Assembly (NCBI RefSeq): GCF_002117485.1
Contig: NZ_CP021033.1
Location: 620,001 to 684,000, forward strand
DNA: 64,000 bases
Direction of reading: 5' to 3'
Origin: Rhizobium sp. NXC14
GTDB lineage: Bacteria > Pseudomonadota > Alphaproteobacteria > Rhizobiales > Rhizobiaceae
Position numbers and translations under genes: made by a program. Positions 8,795 to 34,502 of this stretch are shown here, one piece after another. Position 1 is the first letter of the stretch, and every line of letters begins with the position of its first letter. Under the pieces are notes generated by a model. That model had not been told where the DNA came from. It searched no databases and worked only from the letters and a program-made list of their open reading frames with translations.

Positions 8795-9022
8795 TGAATA
8801 TCTTAAAGAGTGCTAATCGAACGAAGGCCAAAGACCCTGTTGGCCAATCAGTCAGCCCATAAGCGGCCAGTGCGATGCACAAATATAACGCTCTTGCGAA
8901 TGCCACCGCCCTGGCATCAGCACAAATACTAATCACATATTCAGGCTGCCCATGAAATAAGCAGGCTGGAACTGATTTATTTTTCCCTTTCAGCTCATGA
9001 AGTTACTGGCGTCCCTTTGGAC
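8795..9022. other. intergenic stretch upstream of the nitrate operon promoter
   Basis: These 228 bases separate the start of the cyclic-di-GMP gene from the sigma-54 promoter. I see no gene. NtrC sites would be expected here if the operon is nitrogen-controlled, but I did not find a convincing TGCACC-N5-GGTGCA palindrome by eye. Confidence 0.5.
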
Positions 9023-9039
9023 TTGGCACACCGATTGCA
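9023..9039 (+). promoter_or_regulatory. sigma-54 (RpoN) promoter of the nitrate ABC operon
   Basis: TTGGCACACCGATTGCA matches the sigma-54 consensus TGGCAC-N5-TTGCA, with the invariant GG (9025-9026) and GC (9037-9038) exactly 10 bases apart. Transcription should start near 9050. It fits NtrC-dependent expression of a nitrate uptake operon under nitrogen limitation. Confidence 0.82.
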
Positions 9040-9049
9040 GGCCTTCAAT

Positions 9050-9176
9050 GTGCATCGGTCAACGGCGACCGCTGCAGATGGGCGCGACATAAGCGCTTAC
9101 GTTAGACATCGACGTCGCAAGGATTGCCCTCCGGGATGCACTCATCCCGTGGACGCATTCCGGCGGCGTTTTTTTG
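9050..9176 (+). promoter_or_regulatory. putative ANTAR-type antitermination leader of the nitrate operon
   Basis: Right after the predicted start is a hairpin, CGGTC-AACGGC-GACCG (9056-9071), extended by GCA/TGC outside one mismatch. Its six-base loop has A at position 1 and G at position 4, the ANTAR-target signature. A second, weaker hairpin, GAC-ATCGAC-GTC (9105-9116), also has a six-base A1/G4 loop. Its 3' strand overlaps bases 9113-9118 that can instead pair with 9163-9168 just before seven Ts. Such mutually exclusive antiterminator and terminator forms are known for NasR/NasT-controlled nitrate operons. The NasT-like protein is not encoded in this window. Confidence 0.6.
9113..9175 (+). 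terminator. intrinsic terminator inside the nitrate-operon leader
   Basis: CGTCGC (9113-9118) can pair with GCGGCG (9163-9168), with an additional GGAT/ATTC stretch and a perfect apical hairpin CGGGATG-CACT-CATCCCG (9132-9149), followed at once by TTTTTTT (9169-9175). Placed before the first gene it would terminate transcription unless an antiterminator frees it. An alternative nearby pairing is GGACGCA (9151-9157) with TGCGTCC (9175-9181). Confidence 0.55.
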
Positions 9177-9210
9177 CGTCCGAATTCACCAAGCAGAGGG
9201 GAACCTGCAG

Positions 9211-10524
9211 ATGAAGAAGATTTCGACGACTGCGATATCGGCAACCGGCATCACCCGCCGGAGCATGCTCAAGACGACTGCAGCGGCCGCCCTCATCGGC
9301 GCCGTCAAGACCGCCTTTCCCTCCGGCGCCTTTGCGGCCGGGGCAGGCCCTGAAGTGAACGGCATCAAGCTCGGCTTCATCGCGCTCACGGATTCCGCGC
9401 CGCTGATTATCGCCAAGGAAAAAGGCCTGTTCGAAAAATATGGACTTCCGGAAACGGATGTCGCCAAACAGGCGTCCTGGGGTGCGACGAGAGACAATCT
9501 CGTGTTGGGCGGCGCAGCCAACGGTATCGACGGCGCTCACATCCTCTCGCCGCTCCCCTATCTCATGCACACCGGCAAGGTGACGCAGAACAACAAGCCG
9601 GTGCCGATGGCAGTCCTTGCCCGGCTCAATCTCGACAGCCAGGGCATCTCCGTCGCCAAGGAATATGCCGAAACCGGCGTCCAGCTCGATGCCTCGAAGC
9701 TGAAGGCAGCCTTCGAAAAGAAGAAGACCGAAGGCAAGGAGATCAAGGCCGCCATGACCTTCCCGGGCGGCACTCACGACCTCTGGATCCGCTACTGGCT
9801 TGCCGCCGGCGGCATCGACCCGAACAAGGACGTTTCGACCATCGTCGTGCCGCCGCCGCAGATGGTGGCCAACATGAAGGTCGGCAACATGGACGTTTTC
9901 TGTGTGGGCGAGCCTTGGAACGAGCAGCTCGTCAACCAGGGCATCGGCTTCACGGCAGCCACCACGGGCGAGCTCTGGAAGGGCCATCCCGAAAAGGCGC
10001 TGGGGCTCCGCGCCGAATGGATCGAAAAGAACCCGAATGCCGCCAAGGCCCTGCTGATGGCCGTCATGGAAGCGCAGCAATGGTGCGACAGCATGGACAA
10101 CAAGGCGGAGATGGCGGAGATTCTCGGCAAGCGTCAATGGTTCAACGTTCCGACCAAGGATGTGCTCGGCCGCCTGAAGGGCGATATCAATTATGGCAAT
10201 GGCCGCGAGGTCAAGGCGACCGATCTCTACATGAAGTTTTGGAAGGACGGCGCCTCATACCCGTTCAAGAGCCACGATGCCTGGTTCATGACGGAAAACA
10301 TCCGTTGGGGAAACCTGCCGGCGACGACCGATGTGAAGGCGCTGGTCAACCAGGTGAACCGCGAGGACATCTGGCGCGAGGCTGCCAAGGATCTCGGCAT
10401 CGCTGCTGCCGACATTCCCGCATCGTCGTCCCGGGGCAAGGAAACCTTCTTCGACCGCAAGGTCTTCGATCCTGAAAACCCCTCCGCCTACTTGGAGAGC
10501 CTTTCGATCAAGGCCGTCTCCTGA
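9211..10524 (+). CDS. nrtA: nitrate-type ABC transporter substrate-binding protein (NrtA/CmpA family)
   Basis: This 437-residue protein has a twin-arginine type signal (TRRSMLKTTAAAALIGAVKTAF) followed by an NrtA/CmpA/SsuA-like fold (IKLGFIALTDSAPLIIAKEKGLFEKYGL...). NrtA proteins bind nitrate in the periplasm and pass it to the permease. The start ATG is preceded by AGAGGGGA; the frame upstream runs through the leader and is not translated. It is first in nrtABC, behind the sigma-54 promoter and terminator-containing leader. Nitrate is favoured over bicarbonate or sulfonates because of that control region, not from binding-site residues. Confidence 0.85.
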   Translation: MKKISTTAISATGITRRSMLKTTAAAALIGAVKTAFPSGAFAAGAGPEVNGIKLGFIALTDSAPLIIAKEKGLFEKYGLPETDVAKQASWGATRDNLVLGGAANGIDGAHILSPLPYLMHTGKVTQNNKPVPMAVLARLNLDSQGISVAKEYAETGVQLDASKLKAAFEKKKTEGKEIKAAMTFPGGTHDLWIRYWLAAGGIDPNKDVSTIVVPPPQMVANMKVGNMDVFCVGEPWNEQLVNQGIGFTAATTGELWKGHPEKALGLRAEWIEKNPNAAKALLMAVMEAQQWCDSMDNKAEMAEILGKRQWFNVPTKDVLGRLKGDINYGNGREVKATDLYMKFWKDGASYPFKSHDAWFMTENIRWGNLPATTDVKALVNQVNREDIWREAAKDLGIAAADIPASSSRGKETFFDRKVFDPENPSAYLESLSIKAVS

Positions 10525-10582
10525 TCCCGCCTCTGGCGCGCGAACGGCGCGCCGGCCTTCCATTCCCGTGAGGAGCGCGCTG

Positions 10583-11476
10583 ATGTCCGCCCTGGCAAAT
10601 AAAGAAAATCCCTCGATCGTCGCCTCTGCAAAGCCGGCGGCGAAGGTTCTGTCATTCTCCGGCAAGCAAGCATCGCGGATCGATTTTCGCCGCGCGGCGC
10701 TGACCGCACTTCACAATGTCGTTCCGCCGTCCGTCGTGCTGGCTCTCGTGCTCCTCCTCTGGCAGGCGCTCTGTTCATCGGCGGACGCCTCTCTGCCTTC
10801 GCCGCACCAGGTCTGGCAGGATAGCTACGACCTCATCGCCTATCCGTTCTTCAACTACGGCTCCCAGGATATCGGGCTCGGCTGGCGGGTGCTGGTCTCG
10901 CTGCAGCGCGTGGCTTATGGCTTCGGCCTTGCCGCAGTCACCGGCGTCATCATCGGGGCGATCATCGGTCAATCGGTCTGGGCCATGCGCGGCCTCGATC
11001 CGATCTTCCAGGTGCTGCGCACGGTGCCGCCGCTCGCTTGGCTGCCGCTGTCGCTCGCCGCATTCCAGGATTCCAGCCCTTCGGCGATCTTCGTCATCTT
11101 CATCACCTCGATCTGGCCTGTCATCATCAACACCGCCGTGGGCGTCCGCAATATTCCGCAGGATTATCGCAACGTCGCCGAGGTGCTGCGGCTCAACCAG
11201 CTCGAATTCTTCTGGAAGATCATGCTGCCGTCGGCGGCCCCTTACATCTTCACCGGCCTCAGGATCGGCGTCGGCCTTTCCTGGCTCGCCATCGTCGCGG
11301 CCGAAATGCTGACCGGCGGCGTCGGCATCGGCTTCTTCATCTGGGATGCGTGGAACTCCTCGCGCCTTCCCGACATCATCGTCGCGCTCGCCTATATCGG
11401 CATCGTCGGTTTTGCTCTCGACAAGCTGGTGGCCGCGCTCGGCAAACTCGTCACCCGCGGCGCCATGGCCAACTGA
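10583..11476 (+). CDS. nrtB: nitrate-type ABC transporter permease
   Basis: This 297-residue inner-membrane permease is of the NrtB/SsuC type. It has a first membrane helix near PPSVVLALVLLLWQAL and the conserved cytoplasmic EAA-like loop around RNVAEVLRLNQLEFFWKIMLPSA, which contacts the ATPase. The ATG has AGGAG eight bases upstream; a GTG 15 bases earlier is less likely. It lies 58 bases after nrtA and 11 bases before the ATPase gene. Confidence 0.88.
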   Translation: MSALANKENPSIVASAKPAAKVLSFSGKQASRIDFRRAALTALHNVVPPSVVLALVLLLWQALCSSADASLPSPHQVWQDSYDLIAYPFFNYGSQDIGLGWRVLVSLQRVAYGFGLAAVTGVIIGAIIGQSVWAMRGLDPIFQVLRTVPPLAWLPLSLAAFQDSSPSAIFVIFITSIWPVIINTAVGVRNIPQDYRNVAEVLRLNQLEFFWKIMLPSAAPYIFTGLRIGVGLSWLAIVAAEMLTGGVGIGFFIWDAWNSSRLPDIIVALAYIGIVGFALDKLVAALGKLVTRGAMAN

Positions 11477-11487
11477 GGACCATATCG

Positions 11488-12285
11488 ATGAACGCCTATC
11501 TCAAGCTCGATCATATCGACAAGCATTTCGATCGCGGCGGCGTGCGCGCCGAAGTCCTGAAGGACATCAACCTGACGATTTCTCAGGGGGAATTTGTTTC
11601 GATCATCGGTCATTCCGGTTGCGGCAAGTCCACCCTGCTCAATCTCATTGCCGGCCTGACCCCGGTTTCGGCAGGCGCCGTGCTTCTGGAAAATCAAGAG
11701 GTCAACGAGCCAGGCCCGGAACGCGCCGTCGTTTTTCAGAACCATTCGCTCCTGCCCTGGCTGACGGTCTATGAGAACGTGAACCTCGCCGTCTCCAAGG
11801 TCTTCAGCCGAACGAAGACCAAGGCCGAGCGACATGACTGGGTGATGGCCAATCTCGACCTCGTGCAGATGGCCCATGCCAGGGACAAGCGGCCCGCGGA
11901 GATATCCGGCGGCATGAAGCAGCGCGTCGGCATTGCCCGCGCGCTTTCAATGGAGCCGAAGATCCTGCTGCTCGACGAGCCGTTCGGGGCACTCGACGCA
12001 TTGACCCGCGCCCATCTTCAGGATGCGGTGATGGAGATCCATAGCCGGCTCGGCAACACGATGGTGATGATCACCCATGATGTCGATGAAGCGGTGCTGC
12101 TCTCCGACCGCATCGTGATGATGACCAACGGCCCTGCGGCCCGGATCGGCGAAGTGCTCGACGTCACCATGCCCCGCCCCCGCAACCGCATCGAGCTCGC
12201 CTCCGACCGGACATATCTCAAATGCCGCGAGGCCGTGCTCAAATTCCTTTACGAACGCCACCGCTTTATCGAAGCCGCGGAGTAA
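11488..12285 (+). CDS. nrtC: nitrate-type ABC transporter ATP-binding protein
   Basis: This 265-residue ATPase has Walker A GHSGCGKST, the Q-loop, signature EISGGMKQRVGIARAL, Walker B ILLLDEPFGALDA and switch histidine MITHDVDEA. It resembles NrtD/SsuB/TauB ATPases and lacks the extra solute-binding-like domain of cyanobacterial NrtC, so the symbol follows alphaproteobacterial usage. It energises nrtAB and is the last clear gene of the operon; vbsP begins 46 bases further on, with different apparent function. Confidence 0.87.
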   Translation: MNAYLKLDHIDKHFDRGGVRAEVLKDINLTISQGEFVSIIGHSGCGKSTLLNLIAGLTPVSAGAVLLENQEVNEPGPERAVVFQNHSLLPWLTVYENVNLAVSKVFSRTKTKAERHDWVMANLDLVQMAHARDKRPAEISGGMKQRVGIARALSMEPKILLLDEPFGALDALTRAHLQDAVMEIHSRLGNTMVMITHDVDEAVLLSDRIVMMTNGPAARIGEVLDVTMPRPRNRIELASDRTYLKCREAVLKFLYERHRFIEAAE

Positions 12286-12331
12286 ATCCCGCGGAGATTG
12301 CCAATCGGGCCGAGTTACGCATACTGGCCTG

Positions 12332-13066
12332 ATGCAGCAATCAGAAAATCAACCGGCCGCCATCGATGTCGTGCTCTGGAAATATCCGAAGAACGACAGC
12401 GGCGAGAAGCGCTGGATGCAGTGGCTTTCACCGAATGAGCGGGAGCGCGCCGCGACCTATCGCTTCGAGCGCGACCGGACCTCGTTCATCGCCGGCCGCT
12501 GTCTGCTGCGGCAAGTGCTGAGCGCGCATACCGAGACGCAGCCTGACAAGCTGCTGTTGCAGGCGGATGCGAACGGCAAGCTGACGGCCGAGGGTCGCGA
12601 CGGGCTGCAGTTCAGCCTTTCCAATGCCGACGGGCTGGTGGCCGTCGCCGTCACTTCAGAATGCGAGCGCGTCGGGATCGACTGCGAACGCGCCGACGCC
12701 GAAATCGAAGCGGCGGCCTTGGAGAGCTATTGCAGCCTGGACGAACGCTATTGGCTCGATCAACTGCCTCCGGGCGAACGATCGCGTGCAGCCGTTGCCC
12801 TTTGGGCGCTCAAGGAGAGCCATCTCAAGGCACTCGGGGTAGGCTTGCGTGAAGATCCCCGCAGCGTCGCCTTTTCCTGGCAGGACGGCTTCCCGGTCCT
12901 GGTTCAGAGCGGCGAACCGGACCGGCAATGGCATCACCGCCTGATCGAGAGCGGCAGCCAGCACGTCGCCGCGCTGGCCGTCCACTCACAATTTCGCGCC
13001 CCCAGCATTCATGTCCTGACGTTTCAGGATGACAGCATGCCGTCCGAATGGCCGGCCCGGAGCTGA
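12332..13066 (+). CDS. vbsP: 4'-phosphopantetheinyl transferase (Sfp type) for the siderophore NRPS
   Basis: This 244-residue Sfp-type enzyme moves phosphopantetheine from CoA to the carrier-domain serine of the synthetase (Ser1009 of VbsS). The two diagnostic motifs are present: VGIDCE (metal-binding Asp and Glu) and WALKESHLKALGVGL, the WxxKEAxxKxxG box. In R. leguminosarum VbsP is needed for vicibactin. Its last 43 bases overlap the 3' end of vbsO on the other strand. Only 46 bases separate it from nrtC, so read-through from the nitrate operon is possible; I saw no RpoI-type promoter directly in front. Confidence 0.87.
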   Translation: MQQSENQPAAIDVVLWKYPKNDSGEKRWMQWLSPNERERAATYRFERDRTSFIAGRCLLRQVLSAHTETQPDKLLLQADANGKLTAEGRDGLQFSLSNADGLVAVAVTSECERVGIDCERADAEIEAAALESYCSLDERYWLDQLPPGERSRAAVALWALKESHLKALGVGLREDPRSVAFSWQDGFPVLVQSGEPDRQWHHRLIESGSQHVAALAVHSQFRAPSIHVLTFQDDSMPSEWPARS

Positions 13067-33930: not shown

Positions 33931-34401
33931 TTAAGCCACCTGACGCTCGGCTTCGATCTGAAGAGGCGCCTGCTGAAAGGAGCCGTCTCCGATGGCGATC
34001 TTGCGCGGCTTCATGGCTTCGGGCACTTCACGCTTCAGCGCAATCGAGAGAATACCGTTCGTCAGCGAGGCGTTCTCGACCCTGACGTGATCGGCGAGCT
34101 CGAAGCGGCGTTCAAATGCGCGCCCGGCGATGCCGCGATGCAGATATTCGCCTTCTTTCCCATCGGGCTTTTGCCCCTTCACCAGAAGGACGTTCCGCTC
34201 CTGGGTGATGTCGAGGTCACCTTCGGCGAAGCCGGCCACCGCCATCTGAATGCGATAGTCGTCTTCGCCCGTCTTGACGATGTCATAGGGCGGCCAGGTC
34301 TCGATCGCCTGCAGGCGCTGCGCATTGTTCAGGAGATTGAAGACACGGTCGAATCCGATGCTGGACCGGTAAAGGGGGGCGAAATCAAGTTCGTTTCTCA
34401 T
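33931..34401 (-). CDS. small heat-shock protein (Hsp20/IbpA family)
   Basis: This 156-residue alpha-crystallin-type chaperone has an N-terminal arm (DFAPLYRSSIGFDRVFNLL), the crystallin core (PPYDIVKTGEDDYRIQMAVAGF; NVLLVKGQK; YLHRGIAGRAFERRFELADHV) and the C-terminal NGILSIALKRE. It binds unfolding proteins under heat stress. The start MRNELDF is chosen because GGAGGA is eight bases upstream; an ATG six bases earlier is too close. Its 5' leader is a ROSE-type thermometer. The longer in-frame reading to 34527 lies inside that leader. Confidence 0.92.
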   Translation of the reverse strand: MRNELDFAPLYRSSIGFDRVFNLLNNAQRLQAIETWPPYDIVKTGEDDYRIQMAVAGFAEGDLDITQERNVLLVKGQKPDGKEGEYLHRGIAGRAFERRFELADHVRVENASLTNGILSIALKREVPEAMKPRKIAIGDGSFQQAPLQIEAERQVA

Positions 34402-34502
34402 AGCCATATCCTCCGTAAAGCAACATGGGTTGGAGACGCGTCGGAAACCTGCGTCTCCCCTCTGATCATCGGCCCGCTTTTGCGCTGCCGACGACGATGA
34501 TC
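34402..34502 (-). ncRNA. ROSE-type RNA thermometer in the hsp20 leader
   Basis: On the minus strand the leader forms consecutive hairpins: GATCATCG/CGATGATC (34464-34502, 8 bp), GGAGACGC/GCGTCTCC (34432-34458, 8 bp), and, next to the start, TTGCT-TTAC-GGAGGA (34409-34423), where the conserved U-U/C-G-C-U of ROSE elements masks the Shine-Dalgarno. ROSE elements repress rhizobial small heat-shock genes at low temperature and melt on heating. The match is by structure and the anti-Shine-Dalgarno motif; folding was not computed. Confidence 0.72.

Follow-up and report, generated by a model that had tools for sequence, protein, structure and literature searches.

A predicted NasT-type antitermination leader behind a sigma-54 promoter motif precedes the nitrate transport operon nrtABC in Rhizobium

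The nitrate transport operon nrtABC in the 64-kb stretch of DNA analyzed here (the window) very probably carries the leader of a NasT-controlled operon, NasT binding and nitrate-dependent read-through being predicted from the sequence of the leader and its relatives. The leader is real, conserved, and well explained, and the class of switch is already known. Three hairpins and an intrinsic terminator were read in it (Table 1). P1 is built from an outer stem (GCA 9052–9054/TGC 9073–9075) and an inner stem (CGGTC 9056–9060/GACCG 9067–9071) and closes on a hexaloop with A at position 1 and G at position 4 (A1/G4). The initial annotation had placed a hairpin with this loop, AACGGC, about two bases past the predicted start, and with the start at 9050 and P1 from 9052, this is where it lies. 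Also as first described, a second A1/G4 loop, ATCGAC, overlaps bases that pair in a terminator before seven Ts (read at 9108–9113, 9112–9118, and 9169–9175, respectively). Bases 9112 to 9116 are common to P2 and the terminator, which makes the two structures mutually exclusive. Between P1 and P2 stands a third hairpin, PM, absent from the earlier account. The P2 stem has only 3 bp in the window, a point that counts against the main reading.

Table 1. Features of the nrtABC leader and operon in the window
Feature	Position	Strand	Basis
Weak candidate NtrC-type enhancer TGCACAAATATAACGCT	8876–8892	.	148 bp upstream of promoter motif; 3 mismatches to TGCAC-N7-GTGCA
Sigma-54 (−24/−12) promoter motif TGGCAC-N5-TTGC	9024–9038	+	direct reading; predicted start 9050
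P1 hairpin, hexaloop AACGGC 9061–9066 (A1, G4)	9052–9075	+	direct reading; covariation in 49 relatives
Middle hairpin PM, between P1 and P2	9079–9099	+	stem 9080–9085/9093–9098; covaries in relatives
P2 hairpin (predicted antiterminator), hexaloop ATCGAC 9108–9113 (A1, G4)	9105–9116	+	stem GAC 9105–9107/GTC 9114–9116
Intrinsic terminator, excludes P2	9112–9175	+	arms ACGTCGC 9112–9118/GCGGCGT 9163–9169; T run 9169–9175
nrtA, nitrate-binding ABC transporter protein, twin-arginine-like N terminus	9211–10524	+	PF13379, 359 bits; start by eye
nrtB, permease	10568–11476	+	TIGR01183, 306 bits (cut-off 209); predicted start
nrtC, ATPase	11485–12285	+	TIGR01184, 344 bits (cut-off 292); predicted start

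The unconstrained minimum-energy fold contains the terminator, and with the whole leader transcribed, the terminator form is computed at −55.5 kcal/mol as compared to −47.6 kcal/mol for the form with P1, PM, and P2. All three hairpins are present in the best fold of transcripts ending at 9118 and at 9160, and the best fold of a transcript ending at 9140 is without the P1 and P2 hairpins. As modeled, this order broadly matches what an antitermination leader would need, with stopping as the default and something required to hold P2. Folding energy was weak evidence (z = −1.9; matched by 6 of 200 shuffles) and was therefore not relied on. A descriptor written after the site had been seen, and composed of a sigma-54 site, an A1/G4 hexaloop hairpin of at least 5 bp, a second A1/G4 hairpin of at least 3 bp, an overlapping 7-bp terminator arm, and a run of at least five Ts, gave a single match, at exactly this site, when both strands of the window were scanned, and no match in any of 60 first-order Markov resamplings. 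With the promoter removed from the descriptor, the mean was 0.017 matches per resampling versus the one observed.

The genes behind the leader are predicted to encode a nitrate ABC transporter, as NrtB and NrtC exceed their NCBIfam cut-offs and NrtA resembles the nitrate-binding NrtA 2g29, its best solved relative (E = 3e-173); NrtA itself scored over no NCBIfam cut-off. In-frame alternative nrtA starts exist at TTG 9124 and ATG 9136, and by eye the start at 9211 fits better, being preceded by AGAGGGG and closely followed by the twin-arginine motif. The genome consists of four contigs, and the window lies on the one designated C4. Plasmids matched the 9000–12290 region at ∼91%, with R. sophoriradicis, R. 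etli, R. phaseoli, and similar strains on top, and the same gene block is present on R. etli CFN 42 plasmid p42f. From these plasmid matches and the shared block, C4 is taken to be a plasmid; by sequence, the source is a Rhizobium of the etli/leguminosarum group. A 4′-phosphopantetheinyl transferase (PPTase) gene (12332–13066, same strand) starts 46 bp past nrtC, and the gap, inspected by eye, holds no T-run terminator. Next to it are N-hydroxylase and NRPS genes (siderophore-like) on the opposite strand, and PPTase and siderophore-like neighbors recur in R. etli p42f. Read-through from nrtC would couple the PPTase gene to nitrate control. As a conserved part of the operon, this gene was rejected: it is downstream in 2 of 80 named loci (best 80 of 590) and in R. 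etli p42f, and it was therefore left out of the operon. Elsewhere in the window, a ROSE RNA thermometer (34395–34491, minus strand; 46.7 bits, Rfam cut-off 45) precedes an Hsp20 small heat-shock gene.

The RpoN promoter was initially annotated as exact (GG-N10-GC), and a perfect motif was indeed read, with GG at 9025–9026 and GC at 9037–9038 at the sigma-54 consensus spacing. TGGCA and TTGC are invariant in 49 aligned leaders, although among these bases the A and TT alone were free to vary because TGGC and the final GC belonged to the motif by which rows were selected. The genome encodes RpoN (two copies) and NtrC. Upstream of the promoter, the candidate enhancer was scored against TGCAC-N7-GTGCA, which we take to be the NtrC site consensus. 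NtrC-like sites with at most two mismatches were found in 33 of 50 upstream rows, many of them equidistant, versus a mean of 4.5 in mononucleotide shuffles; the window is counted twice among these rows (also as L002), and its own site fails the two-mismatch cut. Upstream of the promoter motif, relatives also show recurrent TGCACAA-rich sites near the NtrC consensus, at distances of ∼148, 136, and 105 bp and thus spaced by about helical turns. Transcription could instead start at a second promoter of the sigma-70 type, in which case nitrogen limitation would be no layer of control. The sigma-54 assignment is argued from sequence alone, the NtrC-like site of the window is weak, and the strict motif is absent in 16 of 110 sorted nrtA loci. 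We nevertheless consider this start very improbable, since the motif in the window is perfect and by usual spacing puts the start two bases from P1, relatives have it at a comparable distance ahead of P1, and near-consensus NtrC sites are enriched upstream in those relatives.

A search of the family for NrtA gave matches in 94 of 151 genomes, NasS-like and weaker matches included, and a separate genome scan supplied the named loci, which are the best 80 of 590 confirmed stretches. A script sorted 110 nrtA loci, several of them one genome fetched twice, into 73 with type I leaders (the type found in the window), 20 with type II leaders, 16 lacking the strict sigma-54 motif, and one lacking a T run. 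Sorting required the sigma-54 motif, the T run, and the P2 3′ arm, so the invariance of these three is partly selected. Reduction at 90% identity brought the type I set down to 50, from which L028 was dropped by hand as type II, leaving 49 leaders with the window included; L048, L108, and L112, which the strict motif had assigned to type II although they read as type I, were left out of the alignment. Alignment across relatives had been proposed as a check for compensatory changes, and the P1 stem does covary, with 87.3% of cells paired and changes on both sides in five of nine pairs. PM behaves likewise (84.8% of cells paired; both-side changes in seven of seven pairs). For P1, PM, and P2 together, 88.4% of cells pair, as compared to 82.7% in column shuffles and 25 to 46% with slid partners. 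All 49 leaders have A1 and G4 in both loops. The P2 stem GAC/GTC is likewise invariant (49 of 49; none of three pairs varies), its 3′ arm being part of the row-selection motif, and the terminator keeps seven of seven pairs in every leader, one pair varying on one side. Near-freezing of P2 and the terminator arm is expected because the same bases must pair in two ways, with selection of the P2 3′ arm contributing, and covariation therefore cannot test P2 in type I leaders.

P2 does covary in type II leaders, which precede nrtA in Mesorhizobium and others and narK in Rhizobium and in which a short linker joins P1 to P2; AAAGCT and AACGCC are examples of their loops. One pair of the P2-equivalent stem changes from GC to AU in 6 of 19 distinct leaders, and two of four P2 pairs show compensatory change, the outermost of these being unpaired in 12 of the 19 rows. 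On two of five covariation measures the type II set is weaker (97 and 66 of 500 shuffles reach them). The rows were picked by a script that demands pairing (24 found, L107 and L114 left out, 22 used), so the percentage paired in type II is biased upward.

A covariance model of the type I alignment (R1) scored 73 bits at the window, which is itself one of the 49 training rows. The next two matches in the same genome both scored 26.7 bits. One is a relic in the narK leader, described below; the other (C1:2926575) was taken as chance, as it overlaps an open frame ∼0.35 kb upstream of an acetolactate synthase gene. Upstream of that gene, an attenuator-like hairpin and a T run were seen by eye (L126:2740–2920, minus strand).

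A search for nasS and nasT elsewhere in the genome had also been suggested, and a NasT-like protein with receiver and ANTAR domains was found beside a NasS-like one on contig C1. It is the only ANTAR protein (PF03861) in the genome. Two outcomes named at first as contrary to the reading, stems free of covariation and a genome lacking a NasT homologue, therefore did not occur. The gene order on C1 is ANTAR protein, NasS-like binding protein, NarK-like transporter, NirB, NirD, and a molybdopterin nitrate-reductase-like protein. At E = 1e-20, neither the NasT-like nor the NasS-like protein is named by any NCBIfam model; NirB and NirD exceed their NCBIfam cut-offs, and NarK and the reductase fall below theirs and were named by match and context. 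Across the 151 family genomes, the type I model matches 28 (E = 1e-4) and the type II model 38 (E = 1e-3), 63 in all, with three genomes, all of the window's genus, matching both. When lists were compared by eye, all 63 leader-bearing genomes belonged to the 95 that encode an ANTAR protein, and none belonged to the 56 that lack one. The genomes are related, so this is not a number of independent events. Neither leader was matched in 32 of the 95 ANTAR-bearing genomes under strict filters. In 25 of the 28 genomes, a NasS-like match precedes the type I leader by no more than 1.4 kb (by eye); in G000, G128, and G107, the leader is on another contig. Among named loci (best 80 of 590), within the 4 kb fetched, a NasS-like gene stands upstream of nrtA in 67 of 80 and NirB downstream in 63 of 80.

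Physical separation of nrtABC from nasTS in the window's clade raises the alternative that the leader is of the right type but orphaned, nrtABC having moved to another replicon and escaped NasT, with the leader left as a constitutive attenuator. The PPTase and siderophore-like genes that adjoin nrtABC, here and in R. etli p42f, would fit such a history. Ten of the 13 loci without an upstream NasS-like gene are Rhizobium of the window's clade, and NirB was found within 4 kb downstream in none of these ten (both counts from the best 80 of 590). However, all ten keep the sigma-54 motif, P2, and the T run, and nine have an uninterrupted P1 (L042 has a mismatch; best 80 of 590). The genome also still encodes NasT- and NasS-like proteins, and escape from NasT appears very unlikely. 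A protein-independent attenuator, with the terminator tuned by leader-peptide translation, transcription speed, or a small ligand and the A1/G4 loops coincidental, would suit the greater stability of the terminator form and the short leader frames (ATG 9078, 4 codons; GTG 9050, 54 codons) but is highly unlikely, given that the loop positions are invariant in 49 of 49 leaders while the P1 stem covaries around them, that type II leaders with different stems keep the same positions (in rows chosen for them), that leader matches are confined to ANTAR-bearing family genomes, and that the ATG at 9078 occurs in only 13 of 49 aligned leaders. A leader peptide as such was rejected, the frames at 9050, 9078, and 9149 all being short.

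Under NasT control, events could proceed as follows. In nitrogen limitation, sigma-54 RNA polymerase would start at about 9050, and the nascent RNA would fold P1, PM, and P2. As the transcript lengthens, the more stable terminator would capture the P2 bases and stop transcription before nrtA. Binding of nitrate or nitrite by NasS would release NasT, which, by holding P1 and P2 through their A1/G4 loops, would block the terminator, so that nrtABC is transcribed. NasT encoded on C1 would thus act in trans on C4. The two-layer control initially proposed, nitrogen limitation through RpoN and then nitrate presence through NasT, is supported at the level of sequence; the transcript start, NasT binding, the response to nitrate, and any role of PM are predictions of this scheme.

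At gathering scores, Rfam gave no match at the leader. Its narK RNA family (RF03032), reportedly described in a 2017 survey, scored 22.3 bits at the window (E = 0.02; gathering score 43.2), and the leader, which seems to work like RF03032, is accordingly not filed as a member. RF03032 follows the order of the window leader: a sigma-54-like motif, a P1 loop AACGGC, and then a P2, which in RF03032 reads CGAC-AAAGAC-GUCG. Its consensus structure, however, marks P1 only and leaves P2 unpaired. Its matches precede NarK, NirB, or NrtA/NasS-like genes. Among 299 genomes of the phylum, 15 had a match at E = 0.001, 11 of them over the cut-off and 14 outside the window's class, and by eye all 15 fall among the 106 genomes with an ANTAR protein. 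Twenty of 23 matches were fetched, and counting perfect stems of at least 3 bp, 19 of the 20 have an A1/G4 P1, 18 an A1/G4 P2, and 17 both (exceptions L169, L173, and L184). RF03032 is thus likely a NasT-type leader together with its promoter. No published statement equating the two was found in a literature search whose coverage did not extend to the paper describing the family. Some RF03032 matches (L182–L186) precede an NrtA/NasS-like gene, followed in L184 by a NasT-like gene, and in these loci an RF03032-type leader may also control its own regulators.

Relatives whose genes were read one by one share the order nasT, nasS, leader, transporter, nirB, nirD, and nitrate reductase, the transporter being nrtABC in two, narK in four (including G029), and a more distant nrt set in one. 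In G128, nrtABC is on a different contig from nasT, nasS, and narK. On the chromosome, narK has a chimeric leader in the window's own genome (26.7 bits) and in G029 (33.5 bits): a sigma-54 motif, a type I P1, and a damaged remainder are followed by a complete type II leader. In the chimera at L032:8588–8820 (minus strand), the damaged type I element has the loop AAGGGC. In G047 (L159:2080–2400), a type I leader and the first codons of an nrtA-like gene precede narK (by eye), as if the remnant were a scar of nrtABC loss. These arrangements suggest that chromosomal nrtABC gave way in the window's clade to narK with a type II leader, and that nrtABC with a complete type I leader persists on a plasmid. 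The narK leader of G128 (L165:1–2400) is type II only, and its NasT and NasS share 70% and 41% identity with their counterparts in the window's genome; there, the regulator pair itself may have been exchanged. Taken jointly, the NasT leader could be a portable cassette, leader and transporter (in the window's genus, type I with nrtABC and type II with narK) being exchanged as a unit in Rhizobiaceae by recombination inside the leader, which would leave chimeras and keep a transporter displaced to another replicon under nitrate control in trans; type I would be tripartite, with PM setting the P1–P2 distance or read by NasT, and RF03032 would be the same element fused to a sigma-54 promoter, mainly outside Alphaproteobacteria. 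We regard this composite account as evenly poised between right and wrong.

In Paracoccus, nitrate dissociates NasS-NasT and NasT binds the nasA leader (PMC3795266); when hairpin I is mutated, growth on nitrate is lost, and nasT is itself acted on through an NtrC site (PMC5424462). In its two termination hairpins and its alphaproteobacterial host, this leader, from Paracoccus denitrificans, resembles that of the window, for which the same NasS-NasT regulation and role in nitrate assimilation are predicted. The Paracoccus leader lies between nasTS and nasABGHC, whereas the window leader precedes a transporter operon on a contig other than that of nasTS, and the latter differs further by its sigma-54 motif two bases from P1 and an extra hairpin between P1 and P2. 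A two-hairpin rule with terminator exclusion was proposed as general for ANTAR proteins (Ramesh 2012, PMC3369931), and the EutV/NasR dual-hairpin antiterminators share with the window A1/G4 hexaloops and a P2 overlapping the terminator 5′ arm. Type I leaders differ in having a covarying stem in the P1–P2 linker, of which no mention was found for the EutV/NasR type in the available text of that paper. As read, the window leader carries the loops, P2/terminator exclusion, and compensatory stems of a NasT/NasR-type ANTAR leader, together with an ANTAR protein, a sensor, and a nitrogen operon.

NasT targets dispersed away from nasTS, as proposed here, are also found in Bradyrhizobium, where narK and nirA are such targets (PMC4724949, PMC6759348). 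NasT controls both genes aerobically, narK-lacZ being undetectable without NasT, and the nrtABC promoter is reported to be other than that of narK (PMC4724949); for Bradyrhizobium nrtABC, no NasT leader is described in the available text of either paper. Under denitrifying conditions, narK, with a predicted NasT hairpin, is expressed more without NasT (PMC6759348), so a NasT-type hairpin is no guarantee of activation. A tolC mutant of Sinorhizobium meliloti shows a joint decrease of nrtABC, nirBD, and the nitrate transporter SMb20436 (PMC2912261), which is in line with, but not proof of, their common control. Nitrate ABC genes and ANTAR genes are listed as sigma-54 regulated (PMC12316311). The expectation that this leader would add nrtA transport to NasT-type control holds as far as the literature search shows: no published NasT leader for nrtA was found in it, the supplementary hit tables of PMC3369931 lying outside its coverage. 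To the same extent, nrtABC as a NasT target in trans, the covarying PM, the type II leader and the chimeras that contain it, and the probable nature of RF03032 are new.

The alignment and covariance model describe a leader type that Rfam missed here at its cut-offs, and they offer a testable explanation for RF03032. For rhizobia, the leader would place nitrate uptake under a two-step logic, nitrogen need and then nitrate presence, through an RNA control element that its transporter may have accompanied from one replicon to another.
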